Shown: piece by piece, positions 37,963-51,663 of the stretch
How the letters are laid out: each line of letters begins with the position of its first letter
Numbering within the stretch: the stretch's first letter is position 1
NCBI GenBank assembly: GCA_003117195.1
Contig: BDSI01000043.1
Coordinates: 747,977-811,976 of the forward strand
Direction of reading: 5' to 3'
Source: Eudorina sp. 2006-703-Eu-15
Lineage: Eukaryota; Chlorophyta; Chlorophyceae; Chlamydomonadales; Volvocaceae
Length of the DNA stretch: 64,000 bases
The notes under the pieces: generated by a model
The model's input: only the letters and a program-made list of their open reading frames with translations
Told to the model about the DNA's origin: nothing
Databases searched by the model: none
Translations under genes and position numbers: made by a program

Positions 37963-40900
37963 ATGGAGCGCCAGATAAACGGGTTCAGCGCCTTCCGGAG
38001 TGGCGAAGCCGAGAATGCCGCCAGTTCGGACTACTACCCACAATTCGACAGCAATCAGTCCTCTCCCAGCAAACGCGTTGCAAATCAGCTGAACGGAGGA
38101 TCCGCTTCCGTTCGGCAGCGCCTGTCCTCTGCGCCTGGCGACGTCGGAGCTGCAAGGGCTGGTCCCGGTTCCCACGCCGGCGCCTGTTTGCATCACAACG
38201 CCTGCGCGGAATATGTTCTCACAGAAGCCACTAATCTTCATGGATCTGGGTCTGCCGGGTATGCTGGGCCGCAGCCCTAAAGCGGCTGTTGTTCCGACCC
38301 GCATCGAATGGGTCAACGCATCCGCACCCGCACCTTCTCCTCTTGCCCACCAACTTCCATCTGGGTCGCCCTTTCGCCAGGTTCAGCGAGCCACCAACGT
38401 TGCTTCACACACCCCTGGCCACGATCCCGCCTCTCACCCCTCCGCCCCCCCCCCCGTCTCCCCCTGTTGGATTGGGACCCCTCGACCCCCACCCCCAGGC
38501 CGCCATACACTCCCCACTGCGCGCCCGCGTCCGCACCTCGCCCGACTCAACCAGGCGCGGGGGTGGCGGTCCCGCGGGCCCATCCTCGAATGGGAGCTCC
38601 CAGCTCCGCGGCAGCACTTCCTGGGGGCGGAGCTGCATCCAACCCGGGAGGAACCAACCCACCCGGCACCGCCTCCACCCCGGCGGCAGGACCCGCCAGC
38701 GCAGGACCCGGTGCCGGTCCCGATTTCTTTGGCGGAAGGAATGGCGGCCCCGCCATGGACAGCCCCCCGCCTCCCGCTTCACTGCGCCCGAGCACGAGGA
38801 CCCGCGTACCGGCCCTTGCGCCCGGCTTCCACCTTGGCCAGGGGACCCAGCTGACGCAGTTTGAAGCAACGCCACCCCGCTCGGCACCCGGGCCTTATGG
38901 CCTGGCTGCTGCGTCGCAGCAGCAGCAGCAGCACAGCCCTTCGCAGCAGCCTGCACTCGGCTCTTCCCCAATCTGGGCCACCCCAGCGGCCGCGGCGGCG
39001 GGCCGCAGGCCCGCCGCAGCGCCGGCGGCGCCAGGCGGTGGCCTCTCCCAACCGCCGCCGGCTGCCCCGGCGCCTGAGCCACTGGGCACCGCGCTGCGGA
39101 CGCCGTCGCGCGCGGCCGCCGCCTCGCCGCCGACACCGACGCCGCGGGCTTCGGCGGCCGCGTCTTGCGCGCAACTGATTTCGGCGCACCTGCGGGTGGG
39201 TATAGGAAATTGGTAGACATATTTTTACTGCGCTGCTGCGGGTGGGTGGGTACCGTAGGCTTGAACCGCGGAGTTGCAGTCCCCCCCGTTACCGTCGCCG
39301 TTTGTGGACGTAGCCAGGGACTGAGATACGCGGATCGGTGTGACTGCAGGAGCGCATTAGATCTGAGGAGCTCCCGGATGACTTGTGTCGGGAGGTTGGG
39401 GGGAATATGGGAAATTGGTAGACACATTCGGGAGGTTGGGAGGAGGTTGGGGAGGGGGTTGTGGCGCCGGCATGCCCCCGCTTGCCGCGACTCCTGCGGG
39501 GCTTGTGGCGTAGGGTAAACCCTAAACCCTCTTCACCCCACAGGTCGCCGTCATCCCTTCCTTTCCCTTCCCTACATGATATGATGAACGCTGCGAGTGA
39601 TTGAGGGCGATGTGAGCCCGCAGCTCCATCCTGTCGGTCCTCCACGAAGTCCCGCGCCGAAACCACGCCTCCGCGCCTCCGGCTCCGCGCAGGGCCCCGC
39701 TTGCGACGCGGACCAGCCCGTGCCGGTGCCGCGGGCCCCCGGGGACGTCTCTGAGACCGCTGAGAGGCTGCACCTGTACACCGGCCTGCCGTTCCACTGC
39801 ACGTGAGGCGGGAGGGGGCGGGTACAGGAAATTGGTGTGGGGGAGGGGGGGTAAAGGAGGGGGAGGGGGAGGCGGCATTCAGCAGATAAGGGTTGAGATA
39901 TGGTCCCACCCACAAGAGGAGATCGCGCTGCGTCGGCTGCCATCGCCGCCCTCGGCCACCCCCATGCCACGGGTCCTCGGGGTCTCGTTGACATGAGGCT
40001 TTGTTCGTTTCGGTGGGCGGCAGTCTGCCTTCGTTTCAATGGGCGGGTTCTCGGGTGGACTCCGGGGCGCGGGGGGCACCAGGGGCGCGGGGGTCACAAG
40101 GGTGGACTCGGGGCGCGGTTTCCTCATCATTGGTCGGACATCGCCCCGGGCCCCACTTTCCACGCCCTCTGGTCTGGAGCTACCGGCCCCCGGCCCCCTG
40201 ACCTTCCTCTCCCCCCTCGTGACGTTTCCGCTCATCCCTCCTCCCCTTCCGTCCGCGCCTCTCTCCCTTCCTATCCCCTTCCTATCCCCTTCCTATCCCC
40301 CCTCTCCCTCGTCTGATTTCGCATTAGCCTCCGGTCCTGTCCTATCTTGTCCCGCCCTGTCCTGTCCTATCGTGTCCCGCCCTGTCCTGCCCTGTCCTGT
40401 CCTTGCCCGCAGCCTCATGATGGAGCTGCTGGGCTTGGCCCCCGACTGCTGCAGCCCCGATCTGCTGCGCGGCCTGGCGGCCTCCACCGCCGAGTCGCAG
40501 CTGCTGGCGGTGCTGAGCGTCCTCCTGGCGCAGCGCCAGCTGGGGGCAGCGGACGGATCGGGAAAGGAAACCGGGGAGAACGCGGCGATGGCGGGCGAGG
40601 AGGGGCGCCCGGGCAGAGGAGGACGCGCGGCCGGTGCTGGTGGGGCGCGTAACGGCGGAGGGGGCGGAGGAGCGCGGGGCCCCGGATCCGAGGCGGTGAT
40701 GGCGGAGGCCCGGGCCCGCGTGCGCGCGCACTGGGACACGCTGCGGCGCGGCGGGATGGTGCGTGTGGCGCGGCCGGAGGATGGCGGGGGCGACGGAACG
40801 CTGCTGCCGTACGATCCCAGGCCGGCGCAGCTGCCGCCGTACAGGATGGTGGTCGCCCGCTGCGAGCTGCAAGCCCTGCAGGAGGAGGAGGAGCAGGAGG

Positions 40901-43834
40901 AGGAGGAGGCGGCCTCGGGGCGTCGGCAGCGGGGCCAGTCGCAGGGGCAGCGGCGACTGGGTGTGGCCGCCGGCTGGCGCCGGCGGGCGCAGCGGCTGTG
41001 TAGCCCCGGGGTGGCGGTCAGCGACGGAGCGGTGCTGCGGTATGAGCTTGAGGTGGGCGGGGCCGGTTGTGGGAGAGGGAGGATGGTGAAGAGGGCAGGG
41101 CCGGTGGTTGCGTGGCCGCGTTCTTCGGTGGGTGGGTGGCGCGGCGGGTGGGTGGGTGGGTGGGAGTACTGGATGGGATGGGAGGAAATCCAGGGGCGGA
41201 GGTCCTGACGGTTGGTTGGCTGCGGGCCCCACTCCCGTCCCAAATGCTCCGCCGGCGGCGGCGCCGCAGGTCTCCCGCGATGGCTGCTACCTGACCCGCC
41301 ACCCCGTGCTGGCCGCCCACGACCGGCTGCTGCGGCTGGAGCTGGAGGACCCCGCCGCACTGACGGAGGGGCACGACGAGGCGCGGCGGGGCGCAGCGCG
41401 GGAGGCGCTGGAGAGGCTGCTGGGCCGGGGCTTCTTGTTCGGGGGCCGCCTCTACCGGTGAGCAGGGAGGGAGGGTGAGCAGGGAGGGTGAGGAAGGAGG
41501 GTGAGTAGGGAGGGTGAGGAAGGAGGGTGAGTAGGGAGGGTGAGGAAGGAGGGTGAGGAAGGAGGGTGAGGAAGGAGGGTGAGCAGGGAGGGTGAGTGAG
41601 CGGTGGCGGTCTCTACCGGCGGGAGGGCGCAGCCGCACCGGTGGCCACCAGCGGATTGCGGGCGGTACGTCAGTGTCCCGGGGTCAGTGCCTGGGGTTTC
41701 CTGGCGCTGGTGGTTCAAACACCCGGGGATGGAGGGGGTCCTCGAACTGGGTGTAAAGTGGTAGGCATATTCCCGACACCAGGGAGGGGGCCTCACCGCG
41801 ATGTCGAATCCTGCGATGGGGCCCTGCAACCCAGCATTTTCATGCTCGCATGGTCGATCAGATCGATCCATCAGGTACCTGCCCCGCCCCCCGCGCGCCC
41901 TGGTCCCCGGCCGGGCGCCGGCTGGCGCCGCCCCGCCCTGGCCCGCCCCGCCCCGGCCCGCCCCGGCCCGGCCCGGCCCGGCCGGAAGAGACGACAGTCG
42001 TACATTCCAACTTTTTTTCCTTTGAAGGTAGATGACGAAGCACAGCGTTACCAAGAATTCTACTATTTCATAATATTGCAAAACTTCTTTGTAATAAACA
42101 AAAGTGTTGGCCCCGCTGCAGGTACCTGATGGCCAAGGACTCGACGGTGTGGTGCGTGGCGGTCCGAAGCGCACTGCGGGCTGACCTGGCGGCTTGGCGG
42201 CCGCTGAGCCACCCCATCATGGTGTGTGTGTAAAAGATAACTGAGCCGCGAGAAGCGAAGTCCAGCATAACAGGCGATGTAGGCGACGGAATGGTGTGTG
42301 TGTGTGCGTGGTCAATGAGAGTGTGTGTGTGTGTAGGTGTAGGTGTAGGTGTGTGTGCGTGTGGGTGGGTGTGTTCGTGGGCAGGCAGAACAGGAGTGCG
42401 TGACGCGCTGGAGTGTCAGCTGTTCAAACCGACCCGGAAGCATTGTGTGTGTGTGTGGTGTAGTGTCTAAGAGAACTGCATTGGTGTGTGCGACTGCGAC
42501 TGCGACTGCTCAGAGGGGACGGACTTAAAAAGGGGCAGGGGGCCATGCCGCCGCGCTGAAGCGCGGGCCGGAAACCGGGGAACTGCGGCGGGCGGGGGCG
42601 GGGAGGCGGTCCAACAAGGCACGGCGCGCGTGCACTCCGCGACCGCCCCCGCCCTGCGGCCTTGTCGCCCACCTTCTCCCGGCCCTTACCCATGTCCCAC
42701 CTGCCCGCCCGCCGGGCAGGACGGCTGGCCGCAGCTGGGCGCGGCGGTGCGCCTGGACAGCTGCCAGGCCATGTTCATGCGGGCGGAGCTGTGGGCCAGC
42801 AAGGCGGTGCCGCTGGCGCTGCAGGGATGGACCGTTAGGTGCGTGCGAGCCGCGGCGTTGGTTGCTTCGTTGGCGCGACGGTTTCTTGGTTGGTTGGCGT
42901 GACTGTTAGGTGGTGTGTCCCCTGACGACGTGGCGCCCGAGGCTCTGCGATATGCGGCGCAGCAGCCCCTCCACATCGGCAGCCACTGTGTCCTCCGACT
43001 GGACCTCCGGCCGCCTCCACCCCGCTGCCCAGCCCGGGCGGAGCAACAACCAACGAGCCCGTGACGTCATGTCGTACCGTGGCTCCTCACACTGTCCCCC
43101 GCTGTCCTGACGCCCGTGTCTGTGTCTGTCCTCCTGGCCGCTCCCGGGAATGCCTCGGTGCCGACCTAGGTATGTGCCCGATATGGAGGCGCCAGCCCCT
43201 GCTCCGGACTTCTCGAATGTCGGAGCCCCGACCATTACCAACACCAGCAACAGCAGCAGTCCAGATAGCAACGTCAGAGCTCCCGGAAACCCCGGCGCCG
43301 GCCCCGGCAGCAGCAGCAGCAGCAGCAGCCACCCTGCGCCCGCGCCGCGGCCCGCTGCCGCCCGCATCCTGACCGACGGCGCGGGCCAAGCCTCCCTGGA
43401 CCTGTGGGACCTGATCCCCGCGGCCTGGAGCGAGCACCGGGCCGCAGCCGAGGATGCTGACGTCACCGCCGAGTCGCTCTGGCGGCGAGCCGGCGGAGGC
43501 AGCGGCGGCGGGGCCGGGGTCGGTGGCGGCGGCGGCGCCGCCGCCGCCAGGGGCTTCCGCATGCCCGTCCAGATGCGGCTGACCCACGCGCTGCTGCCGG
43601 ACCGCCCCCGGGTGATGGCCAAGGGGATGCTGTCGCCGGACGCCAGCCTGCCGCCCCGTACCATCGTACTGCCGTACAGCTGCGTTAAGGCGCCCGCGCG
43701 GTCAGAGCTGGAGATGTGGGACGCGATCGCGTTTAACGCGGAGCCGGCGGCGGGCTCGGAGGAGGAGGAGGAGGAGGTGGAGGAGGTGGCCGCGGGGATG
43801 GGTGACCCGGGGTGGGACGGGCGCCGCAACGGGC

Positions 43835-43871
<37 letters not shown>

Positions 43872-46800
43872 GGTGCGCGTGCGGGCCCTGCCGGGGTATC
43901 CCCCCGACGTGGTGCAGCTGGAGCTGAACAACTGCGGCAAGGAGGTGTCCGGCAGCCGCCTCAATCAGAACCTGCTGCCGCTGCTGGTGCACCACGGCGT
44001 GCCCCGGGAGCTGCTGTACCAGTTGAGTGCTGCGGCGGGGGCTTGGGGGGAAGGGGAGCCGGGACCGGGGCCTGGGCGAGGAGGGAACGTCGAGGCCGGG
44101 CGCCGCCACCGTAATGATGATGGGGCGGCGCTCTTCGCGCGCAACGGGTAAGGAAGCCCGTCTGTGCGGGGGGGGGGGGGGGGGTAATGAAATACCAGCG
44201 GAGGTGGTGCTACTAGGGCAGTCAGCGGGGGGCGCCCATCGTTTCGCACCCGGGCGCTCGGGTCCGCTGCAAGGGGCACCGGCGACACCGTCTCGCACGG
44301 GTCAACTTCCTGCTGTCCAGGGAACCCTGCCTTGTGCCTTGGTGACCCTGCCTTGTGCCTTGGTGACCCTGCCTTGTGCCTTGGTGACCCTGCCTTGTGC
44401 CTTGGTGACCCTGCCTTGTGCCTTGGTGACCCTGCCTTGTGCCTTGGTGACCCTGCCTTGTGCCTTGGTGACGCCTCAACACTGGCCCGAGGTTGCAGCC
44501 ACCGCTGACTGTCTCTCGTCATTCCTCGCTGCCCGCACACCCGCCGCTGTCCCCCGCAGGCGGCTGGATGCCGCCCTGCAGGAGGTGACCGACTGCATGG
44601 AGAGCCCGGCGGTGGCGCTGCGCACCCTGAGGGGCTTCGAGGAGGGCTTCGCGTGTCTGAGGCAGCGGCTGGAGGCGGGCTGGGGCTGCAGCTTCGGCGA
44701 CGCGGCGGTCGGCGGACTGCGCGGGCGGGGCCGCGGCGCCGGCGCGCCCAAGGCCTGGGACAGGCCCGACGCGCACCTGGTGCACGAGCTGCGGGGGTGG
44801 GTGGGTGGGTGGGTGGGTGTGAGGGGGTGGGTGGGCGCGGCGCGGGACCCACAAAGTGGAAAGGAACAACGGGACGACGTAACAAGGACAAGGGACTGCG
44901 ACGACGTTTCTAAATTGGTTTCATTCCTACGCGCAGGATGATGGTGGTTTCAATCTATGCCAAGGATGATGGAATTGTAGGTCTGTGTGTGTACTCTAGG
45001 GTTTAAAGCCAAAAAACGAGGTCTACCAAGCCTGGCGACAAACACACGTACCAACCAGTGCGGAGTACGAAGTTGCGGTTGGGCACCGGGATTTAGATCG
45101 GCAGCTAAGCGGGCTGATATAGGGGTCCCCGGCGCCCCTGCCCGGGAAGGACAGGCAGGGCTCCCACCGCAACCCGTCCCTCGCACAGCGGTAGAGTGAG
45201 TGCAGCGGTCAGTGGTGTTCAGCGATGGACCCGCCCGGCAGACGTTGAGACGTGCCATCCGCCACACCCCGAGAGGTGCACCCTCCGGGAGGCACCCTGA
45301 TGCCCTTGACACCACCCTATCCCGCGGCCCCGGGGACAAGTTACGTTCTTCCCCTTTAAAGACACATTACAACGAAAAGCATGCAAGTGTTGCCCCACGC
45401 GCCCACATATCCGTCCCTCCCTCCCTCTCTCCAACGCCTCCCTCCCCCGCAGCCTGCAGGCGGCGCTGCTCAACAAGCTGAGGGAAATGCAGATCCCGCT
45501 GCTGGTGCGCGGGTGCACGGGATGGCGCATCCAAGGGGTTGGCGCACACACGGTAGCTCGCCGCATCGGAGCACGCGCGAGGGGGGGCGGCTGCTGGCGC
45601 GGAAAGTGCGGGGTCTGTGCGTGGGGCCCGCTTCCAACCGGGCTGGAGGCCGCCGGTACCTGCATACATGAGGGTTTGTCCCCACTATTGCACCGTAGCG
45701 TAGCTGAGCCCCCAGCACCAGAACTTGGGGGCACTCCCATCATGCCCCGACCCACCCCGCCCCGGCCCCCTTTACCGAGCCCTTCCAGGACAGCTACATG
45801 GCCCTGGGGGTGCCCGACCACACCGGATCGCTGCCGCGGCGCTGCGTGACCCTCCTGGACGACCTGGGCCGACCCGTGGTTCCGGCGCCGCGGCGCTGCC
45901 TGCTGTACCGCGACCCCGAGATCAACCCCAGCGGCCTGCTGGCGGCCTGGGTGATGCCGCCGCCGCCCGGGGTGGTGCGGGGCTTCGGAGCGGGGCTGTC
46001 CAGCGCGCTGGTGATGCCGGTGCAGGTGCGTCATCGGCGTGGGCACCTTCGAGACTTGAAGGAAGAGAAGGGAGCAAGGAACAGGACGGGATGTATGGAC
46101 AGGACGTACTGCTGGATTCGGGGCAGGGGCACTGGCGATGCCTGTCCTGAGCGCTGGTGATGCTGCGGGGTCAGCTGCATCGTCGACTGGATGGCCTGAG
46201 GCCGCGGCTTAGCCCCTGGAGGCTTGCTTGGAGCGATGGAGCCCTCTGCTGACCACCACCTTCGCAATAGGAAGAGGCCCCGTGGGCCGCCGATGTCGTC
46301 CATCCGGCCTTTCCACCCGGCCTTGTCACCGGCCTGCAGGGCGGAGAGTCGCTGGCGGCGCTCATGGCAGGTGGCGACTACGACGGCGACACCTTCCATG
46401 TGCTGATGTGGGAGCCGCTGGTGGAGGCGGTGTGGGGCCGCCTTGCGGCGAAGCAGGGTGTGCCGCTGGAACCCCCGTCGGACCCGTCGGCACCGCAGCA
46501 GCAGACGCCGCGGCAGTACCATCCGGTGTGCCAGCAGCGGCAGCCCGAGCTGCAGTTGCAGCCCCAGCCCCAGTCACCATGGCTGGGGGGCCAGGGGCGG
46601 CGCCCCCGCTCGCCGGGGCAGGGGCAGGGACTGGATGCACCACCCCGCACGCCGCCGCCGTACGGTCCTGGTCAGCAGCCACACCAGCACCCACACCCCC
46701 ACCCGCGCCAGCACCGCGAGCTGCATCCACATCCGCAGCAGCACCGACACCAGCATCCCCAAACGCAGGGGGATTACCACCAAGACCAACATTACCAGCA

Positions 46801-47604
46801 GCATCACCAGCAGCATCACCAGCAGCATCACCAGCAGCAGTGCCAGCAGCAGTGCCAGCAGCAGTGCCAGCAGCAGTGCCAGCAGCAGCAGCAGCAGCAG
46901 ACGAGCTACCCGCACTCGCTGGGGTGCGGTCTGGGCCCGCCGAGGAACCTGACGCAGGGCCCGGCAGCAGCGCCCGAGACGGTACGGACACCGCCATCCG
47001 GGGTGCCGTACCAGTCGGCGTCCAGGACACAAGAGCAGGGCCCCAGCACCAGCGCCTCCGCCGCCGCGGCGGGGCGCGCAGGAGGGTTCGGAGTGGGATG
47101 GGCTGGTGGTGGTGATTACGGCAGCGCCTGGCGGCCGGGTATGGCGGGAAACACTGGGTGGCAGCCGCAGCCTTCCCAATGCCCCTCCCCGCTGTCGTTT
47201 CCGGGTCCAGGCACACCGCCACTGTCCGCAACGTCCACCCCATCGCCTAGGCAGCATGTCCCGCAGCAGCAGCAGCAGCAGCAACAACAGCGCCCGCCAC
47301 CCACGCAGCAGCAGCAGCAACAGCAGCAACAGCAGACCAAGGCCCGAGTTCCCAGCTACGCCGAGGCATGCCGCCGGGGGCTGCTGTGGCAGATGCCGCC
47401 TCAAAAGTCGGGGCCGCGCGGAGAGGTGCGGCAGGTGCTGCGGCGCCCTATATGTATGCCTTCAACGAGGACGGCGCGCACCTCTGTGTGTGTGTTTAAA
47501 AAAGAAGCCCGCCCGCCCTGTGTGTGTATCGTTGCATATCTGATCGGGCCCGACGTTGGCTGTGTGTGTGGTATTTAGGCAGGCAGGACAGGAGGCAGGA
47601 CAGG

Positions 47605-47690
<86 letters not shown>

Positions 47691-50600
47691 AGAAGTGCAA
47701 CCCGCCCGCCCGCCCGATCCCAGGTATCAATATACTTACCATAAAACCTGCGAGGAAAAGAACTTACCATATGCAGGCGCGCGGACAAGGCAGCCGCGCC
47801 ACCACCGCAAGGCAAATCATACCGCAAATACTAAATACGGAGACGCACGACGCACGCAAACGGATTATTTACCGACCTGTGAAATGTATGACGAATGTAT
47901 GGTGATGGCCCCCACGGAAGCAGCGCCGGTCGTCCATCATGCGGGAACGCGGAAGGAAGCAAGTTGTGAGGCAAAGTGGAAGGGAGCAAGAAAGAATACA
48001 GTAACGAAACAAGGTGAAAGCAAACAGGATGAAAGCAAATTTAGGCAGGCAGGACAGGAGGCAGGACAGGCCGTGTGTGTGTGTGTGTGTGTGTGAATCG
48101 TTACATATCTGCCGGGCCGACGCTGGCCGGGGGCGCTAACCCGCCCCATACGGGAGACCGCCGAAGCACTCTCCCCCGGATCACTCTCCCCCGGATACGG
48201 GGGAGAGGGGCGTAAGGGGCCTCTGTCCCCTCGCTCTCAACCAGGGACGCGCGCCCGATCCCCGAGGATCGGTGACAGGTGTGTCCCCTCCAGGGATTGG
48301 GCGAAGGCCCATCCCGGGCGGCCTGCGCCTTGCAGTCCGCTGTTCAACCTCCTCAAGTCCTTGCAGCACCCAGGGCGCGCTCCTCAGCAATTCGGAGGCG
48401 CGCCCCTGCCCGGTGCGGTAAAACTAGCCTGGTCCCGCGTCCCAACCTAATCGTACTAGCTAAGGTTGTGTGCGTGTGGATGTTGGATGCCCACCGCCTC
48501 GGCCCCGGGGCCAGGGCACACGGGACTGACTGGAGAAGCGACCCTGCGGGCACGACCTGGTCATCACACGCACGTACCCGGTCGGCGCCTGCGTCCGGCT
48601 GAGGGGACACCCCTCTCACCACCCGTCCATTCCCTTCGCCCCGTCCATTTCCACACACCCACCCACCCCGTCCATTCCCCCCGCCCCGTCCATTCCCCCC
48701 GCTCCTCCTCCCCGCAGATGGATCCATGCGACCTGATCCAGCAGATGGTGCAGTTCTTCGTTCACGCGCAGGTGGGACGGGGTGCACGTTTGGCGAGGAG
48801 GGGCGTCGTGGTCAGTGCAGGAGGGGCGCGCTGGCCGTTGGGTGAGGGCAAGTGCGGCGGGGCCAGCGCGGCGGGGGGCGCGAGGGCCGAGGGCCGGGCG
48901 GGCGGGTCAAGGTCGGGTCGGGTGGGGGACTGGGGGCAGCTCAGGCGCATGTGGGCCAGGTTCGGGACCGCGACGTTTTGAATGTACCAGAGTCACCCAC
49001 CAGCCCATCCACACCCGCGCATCCATCCGCCCCTAGTGTTCATGACATATCCCCTCCTCCCCCGCCCCGTTGGGCCGTTTTCGTTTTACCCGCCCCCCAA
49101 TCCCCTCTTACCGGTGATTATCGTTGGTCAGTATTTGTCGCCCGGCTGGGTGTGTCTGGGCTGTCACTTTTCAACCCCCAATGCCCCATCAGATTGCGGA
49201 CGCCTCTATCGGGATCTACCACTCGTACTGGCTCAAGTGCCTGGAGCTGCCCGAGGAGCAGGGCGGCGGGGCGGGCGGCCCCTTGTGCCTGACGCTGGCC
49301 AGCTGCTACGAAGCGGCGCTGGACGTGAAGAAGCACGGGCGACGGCCGGAGCTGCCGCGGGATGTGGAGGTGCGTGTGGGCTGTGGGCTGTTGGGGGCCG
49401 GGTTCTGGGGGACTGGGGATAGGGAGGGAGGGGTAGCGGGAGGAGGGAGACAAAGAGGGGTTTTCCCCGTGTCCTAATCAGGCCTAGCACCTAGGGGCGC
49501 CCGGTCCAGGGGGGGCTCAGTGGAGGTGTCTAGCGGACCCGTACCGTGGAAGGGGGAGCTTCTGAAGTGCGCTTTTGCGGTTTCACTCACTGTCTAGATT
49601 GCCATGAGGGGGCTCCGGGGGAGGCGGAAGGTGCGCCATGGGGCGTGGTGCGCAGTGGGGGTGTGGCGGGGTCGGCTCGGACAGGTGGCAACGGGTTGGT
49701 GCCACAGACTGTCCGCAATGGGGCGGATGCCCGCCCGGGGGGGTGGCTGCTGGCCGGGCGCCGCCGCCGCGACCTAGGCCCTTGACCCCCCCCCCCTGCT
49801 CCCGCCTTTTGCTGCGGAGACCGCAGGCACTCTGCCGACGTCTGCCCAACCCGTCTTGGCACCGCAAGGTCTGGCGGGGCAACGGCAGACAGCAGCAGCA
49901 GCAGCAACAACAGCCGCCGGCCGCAAGCGCGTCCGTGATGTGGGACCTCTTCACCCGCATCCAGGAGTACCAGGACAGGCTGCGGTGCGCTCCCCACCAG
50001 GGCGGGGGCGGCCACGCGCTGCTGGGCTTTCCGGTTTCACACACCGGCCTTCCCGCGGCGGGGTCAACGCCGCTGGCAGCGCCCGACGGTGGGATGGACG
50101 TGGACGACCGGCTGGTGGAGATGGCGCTCAGCGTGCTGTGGCCGGGCCCGGGCCAGGGGCCGGAGCGGGAGCGGGAGCGGGAGCAGCGGTGGAGGGAGCT
50201 GCGGGAGCGCTGCTGGCGGGTGGTGGACCGGGAGTGGAACACGCCGTGGAGGGAGGCCTTCTCGGCTGTGAGTGGCGGGCGGGCGGGGAGTCGGGGAGTG
50301 AGAGGGCGGGGGCGGGGGCGGGGGCGGGGGCGGGGGCGGGGTAGTCACCCTTGTGATGGCTCGGGTGGCCGGCGAGCCCATGCAGACATATCCACATCCC
50401 TTGTGCCATTGTTGTTTTAATGCGAATTATTTGATGCTTTTGTTGGCGCTTCGTCTGCAGCGAGACGGCCGTGGCGGTGGCGGGGCGGGGGGCGGTTCCA
50501 AGGAGTCCTGGCGGAGGGCGGAGGCGGCGGGCCACGTGCTGGAGCGGGAGCTGGTGCGGCGGGTGCGGCGGGGCCTGCTGGCGGCGGCACGCGACCTGCT

Positions 50601-51350
50601 GCCGGGGCGGCTGCAGCTGGGTGGGTGCGAGCGTGGATGGGCGGGTGGGCGCCGGGCTGGTGACCTTCGGGTGGGAAGACGGCAGACAAGGCAGGAATGC
50701 GTGACGTACAGATGTGTGTCCGTGTAGTCAGCACCGATGAAGACGACCCCGGATGATGCAGAGTAAACGTATACCATGCGTGCCCCCTCCCCTGCCCCCT
50801 CCCCCGGATTCACGCGACGCAGGAGACACAGTGGACGACGGGCTGGAGGATGCGGACAGCTGGCGGGGCAATCCCGCGGGGCCCTCGCAGCGCCCGCTGC
50901 GACCTGCCGCTGCGGGCGCCGGCACGGGCACGGGCAGGGACACGGGCAGGGGCGCGGGGTGGTGCGATGCGCTGATGTTGGACCTGCGGCCGCGCGCGGC
51001 GCTGGCGACGGCCCTCTACGCGGCCGTGTACCAGCATCGGGCGGCGGAGGCTGAGGCCCGGCGTACCCGCAGGTACGCGCGCTCGTACGGTGTGTGTGAC
51101 GGGTGATACAGGGTTTGTGTTTTGTGTTTTGTGTGTGTGTGTGTGGGGGGTGGTGTAAGAGAAGAGACCCGCCCGACCCAAACCAGGTGTGTGTACTAAA
51201 TGTCATTCGAGGCCTGACGACGGCCAAGGGCTGTTGACCCAGCCCTAACGGAAAGACCCTCTTCTCCCTTTCTGTATGTGTTTAGAAAGGGAAGAGAGGG
51301 TCTTTGTGTGTGTGTGTGTGTTTGTGTTTGTGTTTTTGTGTATGTGTGTA

Positions 51351-51398
<48 letters not shown>

Positions 51399-51663
51399 TG
51401 ATGGCTGGCCCACCACCGCAACTCGTATCCGTTCACATCCTATCCCCCAACCCCTCGTCTCCTGCCTGCCTGCCTCCCTCCCTCTCTCCTTCTCTGCGCA
51501 TCACTGCATTCCGCAAACGCGACGTCACAGCGGTGGCGGCGGCGGTGGTGGCGATGCGGGCAGCCGGCTGGGTGTCGTGTGGCTGACGGCGGGTGCGGAG
51601 CTCAACTGGGCGTTCAAGGTGCTGCGCAGCGACGGTCAGCTGCCTCTGGGCGGGAGGGGATGA
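37963..51663 (+). CDS. Cellular RNA-dependent RNA polymerase (RDR family)
   Basis: About 19 exons total 1993 residues in phase: 37963-38258, 38499-39195, 39624-39802, 40413-41052, 41270-41457, 42122-42221, 42720-42838, 43170-44021, 44560-44796, 44937-44984, 45453-45504, 45789-46025, 46271-47434, 48718-48771, 49193-49369, 49869-50267, 50461-50620, 50823-51072 and 51531-51663. The first two exons and the 44984 donor are tentative. Family landmarks, in order: ILTDGAGQASLDLW, RVMAKGMLSPDASLPPRTIV, VVQLELNNCGKEV, LREMQIPLLDSYMALGVPDH, CLLYRDPEINPSGLLAAWVM, then the catalytic GGDYDGDTFHVLMW (46370-46411, Asp triad near residues 1251-1255). After it come DLIQQMVQFFVHAQIADASI and CLTLASCYEAALDVKKHG, the usual post-catalytic helices. 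The enzyme is expected to copy single-stranded RNA into dsRNA for Dicer. A Gln/His-rich insert of about 280 residues follows the active site. The N-terminal 330 residues are low-complexity. The last exon could instead splice at 51637 to one near 51920. Confidence 0.86.
39516..39530. repeat. Interstitial telomere-type repeat (CCCTAAA)2
   Basis: Two CCCTAAA units in an RDR intron, about 95 bases upstream of the third exon. Confidence 0.8.
41457..41605. repeat. GGGAGGGTGAGGAAGGAGGGTGA tandem repeat
   Basis: A purine-rich minisatellite that begins exactly at the 5' splice site of the RDR intron after 41457. Several copies contain GTGAG and so resemble donors. Confidence 0.85.
44324..44470. repeat. 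21-base minisatellite, seven copies
   Basis: Seven apparently identical head-to-tail copies of a 21-base unit (ACCCTGCCTTGTGCCTTGGT plus G) fill 147 bases of the RDR intron between 44021 and 44560. Confidence 0.95.
46791..46906 (+). repeat. CAG/CAC coding repeat inside the RDR gene
   Basis: CAGCATCAC and CAGTGCCAG units encode a Gln/His then Gln/Cys tract within the large RDR exon 46271-47434. A second CAG cluster lies at 47262-47336. Confidence 0.9.
47607..47688. repeat. (GT)41 microsatellite
   Basis: An uninterrupted GT run of 82 bases in the RDR intron after 47434. It is flanked by a TTTAGAAGTGCAACCCGCCC element that recurs, inverted, next to other CA runs at about 10979 and 30788. Confidence 0.95.
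51304..51397. repeat. Interrupted GT microsatellite
   Basis: GT dinucleotides with TTTGTG interruptions in the last RDR intron. Confidence 0.9.

Follow-up and report, generated by a model that had tools for sequence, protein, structure and literature searches.

We analyzed a stretch of 64,000 nucleotides from the volvocine alga Eudorina sp. 2006-703-Eu-15, referred to as the window, that corresponds to positions 747977 to 811976 of contig C43 (at least 812 kb) of a genome assembly of 181.2 Mb and 3,033 contigs. The window contains a real, divergent, and probably working gene for an RNA-dependent RNA polymerase (RDR). The reading that we favor, with a probability of roughly 0.78, is that this is an intact, vertically inherited nuclear gene of a divergent volvocine RDR subfamily within the Pfam family PF05183, whose product would make double-stranded RNA for Dicer/Argonaute silencing. 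The identity of the gene, its preserved catalytic residues, the core fold predicted for an ortholog, the existence of orthologs, and their clade are based on observations. From these we infer the polymerase activity, the entry of the product into the Dicer/Argonaute pathway, and the targets.

The catalytic motif GGDYDGD lies on the forward strand at 46370 to 46390, within a long open frame, and is the single match to D[YFWILVH]DG[DN] across the six frames of the window. In 100 Markov shuffles, D[YLF]DGD and [SG]GD[YLF]DGD occurred 0.03 and 0.0 times per 64 kb, respectively, as compared to one real occurrence of each, which rules out a chance motif. The landmarks DGAG, KGM...SCVK, LNQNLLPLL, GVPDHTG, YRDPEINPSG, and GGDYDGD follow each other as in the family and are found in exons 6, 9, and 10. 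A first model of 15 exons with GT-AG borders yielded one frame ending in a TGA stop at 51661 to 51663. Its exon 10 acceptor at 46271 was replaced by 46340, since the orthologs P0001 and P0002 read MP(V/I)Q|GGESLAA and P0003 reads MPIA|GGESLAA at this junction. With the addition of an in-phase 5' exon (39624 to 39802), the final model has 16 exons and 1,676 residues. Its coding sequence of 5,031 nucleotides contains the terminal stop only, and the other two frames have 28 and 19 stops; a control in which all exons were slid gave a best-frame mean of 12.5 stops with a minimum of 0 and is thus weak. The G+C content at the three codon positions is 78, 57, and 87%, versus 64% in the introns. Alignments by tblastn of three orthologs to the locus cover 13 of the 16 exons, with no row on exons 1, 8, and 15. 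An upstream block (38281 to 39195) joins exon 1 in phase with an open joined translation, and the ATG at 37963 is a candidate start codon that is only plausible. The first-pass annotation of this DNA had thus located the motif and the order of the landmarks correctly; its count of about 19 phase-consistent exons is close to the 16 exons, plus one likely and one possible, found here. All in all, the gene appears intact. Its features, all on the forward strand, are as follows.

38281 to 39195, +, likely upstream coding block of low complexity; ends CACCTGCGG|GTGGGT, open and in phase with the next exon
39624 to 39802, +, exon 1 (RLHLYTGLPFHC); in-phase GT-AG, by eye like RLHLYTSLQL of P0003 (Chlamydomonas schloesseri)
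40413 to 41052, +, exon 2; GT-AG, open frame, covered by P0002 and P0003 in tblastn
41270 to 41457, +, exon 3; GT-AG, ortholog match
42122 to 42221, +, exon 4; GT-AG, ortholog match
42720 to 42838, +, exon 5; GT-AG, ortholog match
43170 to 44147, +, exon 6 with DGAG, KGM, SCVK, and LNQNLLPLL; tblastn E value of 1.8e-42 with the Volvox africanus ortholog
44560 to 44796, +, exon 7; GT-AG, ortholog match
45453 to 45504, +, exon 8 (LQAALLNKLREMQIPLL); in phase, resembles LQDALLIRLKEMQIPLP of P0001
45789 to 46025, +, exon 9 with GVPDHTG and YRDPEINPSG; tblastn E value of 6.3e-29 with the V. africanus ortholog
46340 to 47425, +, exon 10 with the catalytic GGDYDGD, then a Gln/Pro-rich stretch; acceptor set by orthologs
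46370 to 46390, +, catalytic motif GGDYDGD; sole six-frame match, Asp columns conserved
48718 to 48771, +, exon 11 (DLIQQMVQFFVHAQ helix); GT-AG, ortholog match
49193 to 49369, +, exon 12; GT-AG, ortholog match
49827 to 50267, +, exon 13; GT-AG, ortholog match
50461 to 50620, +, exon 14; GT-AG, ortholog match
50823 to 51072, +, exon 15; GT-AG, open frame, within the BLASTP alignment to P0003
51531 to 51663, +, exon 16 with the TGA stop; matches the C termini of P0002 and P0003

The spliced protein, in the model before the acceptor correction, matches PF05183 with 70.8 bits (cutoff, 23.8 bits) and an E value of 1.3e-19. The three Asp columns of the DYDGD motif contain Asp in all 18 sequences that have this region, and the window protein retains this catalytic triad along with nearly all other conserved residues. 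When the family profile was run against the Protein Data Bank, three QDE-1 sequences ranked first, followed by four RDR sequences and a coat protein at chance level. The polymerase core fold of QDE-1 and RDR2 was found in the predicted structure of the V. africanus ortholog (mean pLDDT of 64.6, higher in the core). The identification as an RDR proposed in the first-pass annotation is therefore backed by profile, orthologs, conserved residues, and ortholog fold, and the gene encodes a new member of an already known family of cellular RDRs. A peculiarity shared by all five family members measured is a low-complexity-type segment of 179 to 351 residues that separates DYDGD from the next conserved helix. 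This segment has 351 residues in the window protein, where the helix is encoded by exon 11, and its Gln content is 15 to 23% in four members and 4% in C. schloesseri.

Two protein database searches were carried out, both of which scored no more than ~8,000 candidates, selected by shared exact words, and more distant relatives may therefore be missed. The first search returned three proteins, all with PF05183: Vafri_2621 of V. africanus (52% identity over 91% of the searched core), HYH03_017627 of Edaphochlamys debaryana (50% over 41%), and HYH02_014926 of C. schloesseri (49% over 62%). The profile search returned six, namely, the same three, two pieces of a Tetrabaena socialis ortholog (TSOC_005560 and TSOC_012800) that both reach the PF05183 cutoff, and a metagenome fragment that remains below it. 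Wherever the region is present, the orthologs share GGDYDGD and the long stretch behind it; Vafri_2621 is marked partial, unlike the window gene model. They are named "hypothetical," "RDRP core domain-containing," "Uncharacterized," or "RNA-dependent RNA polymerase," and we found no functional work on them in the literature. The metagenome fragment (P0126; 357 amino acids on an 8.3-kb contig) shares 92 to 97% identity with the C. schloesseri ortholog in each of two conserved parts, as compared to 46 to 52% in a third, variable part; it may represent another close Chlamydomonas relative carrying an RDR of the window type.

In a tree of 36 rows that included five plant RDRs and no QDE-1 sequence, the window gene and its orthologs from four species form one clade (support of 100/100). 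The window gene is nearest to that of V. africanus (97/94), and the remaining branching within the clade is weakly settled. The phylogeny thus places the locus in a green algal clade and not in a contaminant clade. The five plant RDRs group apart (98/97). DLDGD is the rule in plant RDR-alpha (RDR1/2/6) and DFDGD is the motif of plant RDR-gamma; membership in either was rejected on the basis of DYDGD and, in the case of RDR-alpha, of the separate position of the plant RDRs. In the comparison with Arabidopsis and maize RDR2, the window protein has DYDGD at the site where all three plant rows checked have DLDGD. QDE-1 of Neurospora and Thielavia shows ~19% identity in a structural alignment, a kinship that is not placed by the tree. 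A second RDR of the same genome, located on contig C57, falls among fungal, animal, and unnamed RDRs with a support of 99/99. Uniting the window family with this protein and its V. africanus partner in one clade was rejected by the approximately unbiased test (p-AU, 3.9e-6), a third locus on contig C75 being outside that group. The C75 row adjoins the window family (95/98), but its end branch measures 2.83, and we draw no claim from this position. Eight rows differ in composition, seven of which are algal and comprise all algal rows except the V. africanus partner of the C57 protein; the C57 protein itself fills 49% of the tree columns. Due to the skewed composition, the gaps in the C57 row, and the long C75 branch, the deep placement is uncertain. 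These data are consistent with a divergent RDR subfamily shared by volvocine algae with unicellular relatives close to Chlamydomonas. In the literature searched, we found no description of such a subfamily and no article linking C. schloesseri with an RNA-dependent RNA polymerase, and neither this term nor RdRP appears in the main text of the C. schloesseri/E. debaryana genome paper (PMC8226300).

The Eudorina genome contains at least three RDR loci. An exon-by-exon PF05183 search of the assembly gave six matches, on C57 and C75, and partial models of these two loci scored 254 and 79.5 bits, respectively. The locus at C57:212863-217412 is a conventional RDR with DLDGD and has Vafri_14238 as its V. 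africanus ortholog; both belong to PF05183 like the window gene, but to a separate clade. Open stretches downstream of it look coding by eye and are not RDR-like. The locus at C75:503800-506478 is a divergent RDR-like sequence that carries SGGDYDGD and sits on a very long branch; no close homolog of it surfaced in the profile search that returned six proteins. Argonaute sequences were found on C117 and C75, in the latter case near 365 to 371 kb. The Piwi profile gave seven exon-level matches (five above the cutoff and three with one stop counted), and the PAZ profile gave three (all above the cutoff and one with one stop counted); such stops can arise in exon-blind matching. Argonaute domains were thus found and Dicer was not detected; Eudorina may have kept the amplification of small interfering RNAs (siRNAs). 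In the mechanism that we propose, the core would close around the metal-binding Asp triad of DYDGD and copy single-stranded into double-stranded RNA. Dicer would then cut this product, and the Argonautes encoded in the genome would receive the resulting siRNAs, which would most plausibly act against transposons or as phased secondary siRNAs.

Several observations weigh against this reading. (i) The exon-by-exon PF05183 search gave no match at the window locus. (ii) Whole-chain TM-scores in the fold search were low (0.23 to 0.27 by query). (iii) A long low-complexity stretch directly follows the active site. (iv) The stem of the family measures 2.11 changes per column and places it far from characterized RDRs. 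(v) Two RNase III profiles and Dicer_dimer gave no match in the genome in an exon-by-exon search limited by introns; the Dicer_dimer control gave no match anywhere, and the result is not taken as absence of Dicer. The very long stem, the rejected common clade with the C57 pair, the low-complexity segment present in all five members measured, and the better-scoring RDR on C57 would also suit a polymerase-fold protein that acts outside RNA silencing, in another RNA process or with fading activity, while the C57 RDR does the silencing. We consider this unlikely, because the catalytic triad is kept, as is almost every other conserved residue, the frame is open, and the gene is conserved across four other species.

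That the gene died recently, leaving an open exon model at a silent locus or without a working start, is quite improbable. The start codon is only a plausible candidate and the introns are rich in simple repeats, but 1,676 codons free of stops, a coding-like G+C content by codon position, and a C terminus that matches the orthologs speak against such a decay. Viral insertions occur in algae of the volvocine group, and the database searches returned few hits (three and six), as might be expected of a foreign gene acquired by contamination, as an endogenous giant-virus element, or by recent horizontal transfer. We give this explanation hardly any credence, because the gene is predicted to be spliced from 16 exons and lies on a contig that is at least 812 kb long. 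Moreover, contamination and viral origin were rejected because the window protein belongs to a volvocine clade in which that of V. africanus is its nearest relative, and because two peptide patterns run against viral contigs gave 35 stretches, none of which was confirmed as a relative. The preferred reading thus remains that of a vertically inherited RDR of the silencing machinery.

The first-pass annotation stated that RDRs are reported missing from Chlamydomonas reinhardtii and Volvox carteri. This agrees, for C. reinhardtii, with a small-RNA map that describes the species as lacking conserved RDRs, despite reported phased siRNAs, and that raises an uncharacterized noncanonical RDR or a different pathway as their source (PMC7676726). 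For V. carteri it is contradicted by Dueck et al. 2016 (PMC5093975), who describe phased siRNAs as well as one RdRP, one Dicer, and a HEN1 homolog. Other studies mention long branches and low support for RDR-like proteins of Chlorophyta (PMC7994812) and an RdRP without a Dicer homolog in Coccomyxa (PMC3446292). No protein named as C. reinhardtii or V. carteri appeared in the two complete hit lists, and the genomes themselves were not searched; in a third list, none was so named among the 120 of 220 matches listed, many of which were unnamed. Of the two options proposed earlier, that Eudorina keeps or has regained this function, retention of the window-type RDR is favored by the orthologs in four species and the grouping with V. 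africanus. Given the species relationships, orthologs in E. debaryana, C. schloesseri, T. socialis, and V. africanus imply that the gene was present in their common ancestor, and by parsimony the lack in C. reinhardtii, if real, would be a secondary loss. The proposal of a secondary loss in the model volvocines would thus hold for C. reinhardtii and is not supported for V. carteri, where an RdRP is reported.

The divergent clade makes the Chlamydomonas RDR question testable: it includes C. schloesseri, a close relative of C. reinhardtii, and therefore provides the right profile for seeking a hidden noncanonical RDR. We regard it as conceivable, if on balance doubtful, that volvocines and their single-celled kin possess a private noncanonical RDR subfamily, marked by DYDGD and by a long disordered stretch next to the active site, that was missed because PF05183 scores it poorly exon by exon, and that the phased siRNAs reported in Chlamydomonas, in spite of the lack of a conserved RDR, stem from this subfamily or from a relic of it. 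In addition, RDR retention and loss can be mapped onto the part of the tree in which volvocine multicellularity arose, and three RDR types within one genome form a tractable set for dividing functions.

As to the remainder of the window, Rfam and tRNA scans returned no matches. Of the 13 open frames of at least 350 amino acids, the eight that lie away from the RDR gene were compared with Pfam; no frame reached a cutoff, and one gave a weak DUF2749 match below it. Repeats are found in and between the RDR exons. CAG-type repeats at 46793 to 47335 give rise to the polyglutamine runs that follow the catalytic loop. The intron behind the DYDGD exon contains identical 57-base copies (47573 to 47629 and 48039 to 48095), each leading into a GT microsatellite, and 41 copies of GT at 47607 to 47688. 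Another intron harbors seven perfect 21-base tandem copies (44324 to 44472), and a TG tract occupies part of the last intron.
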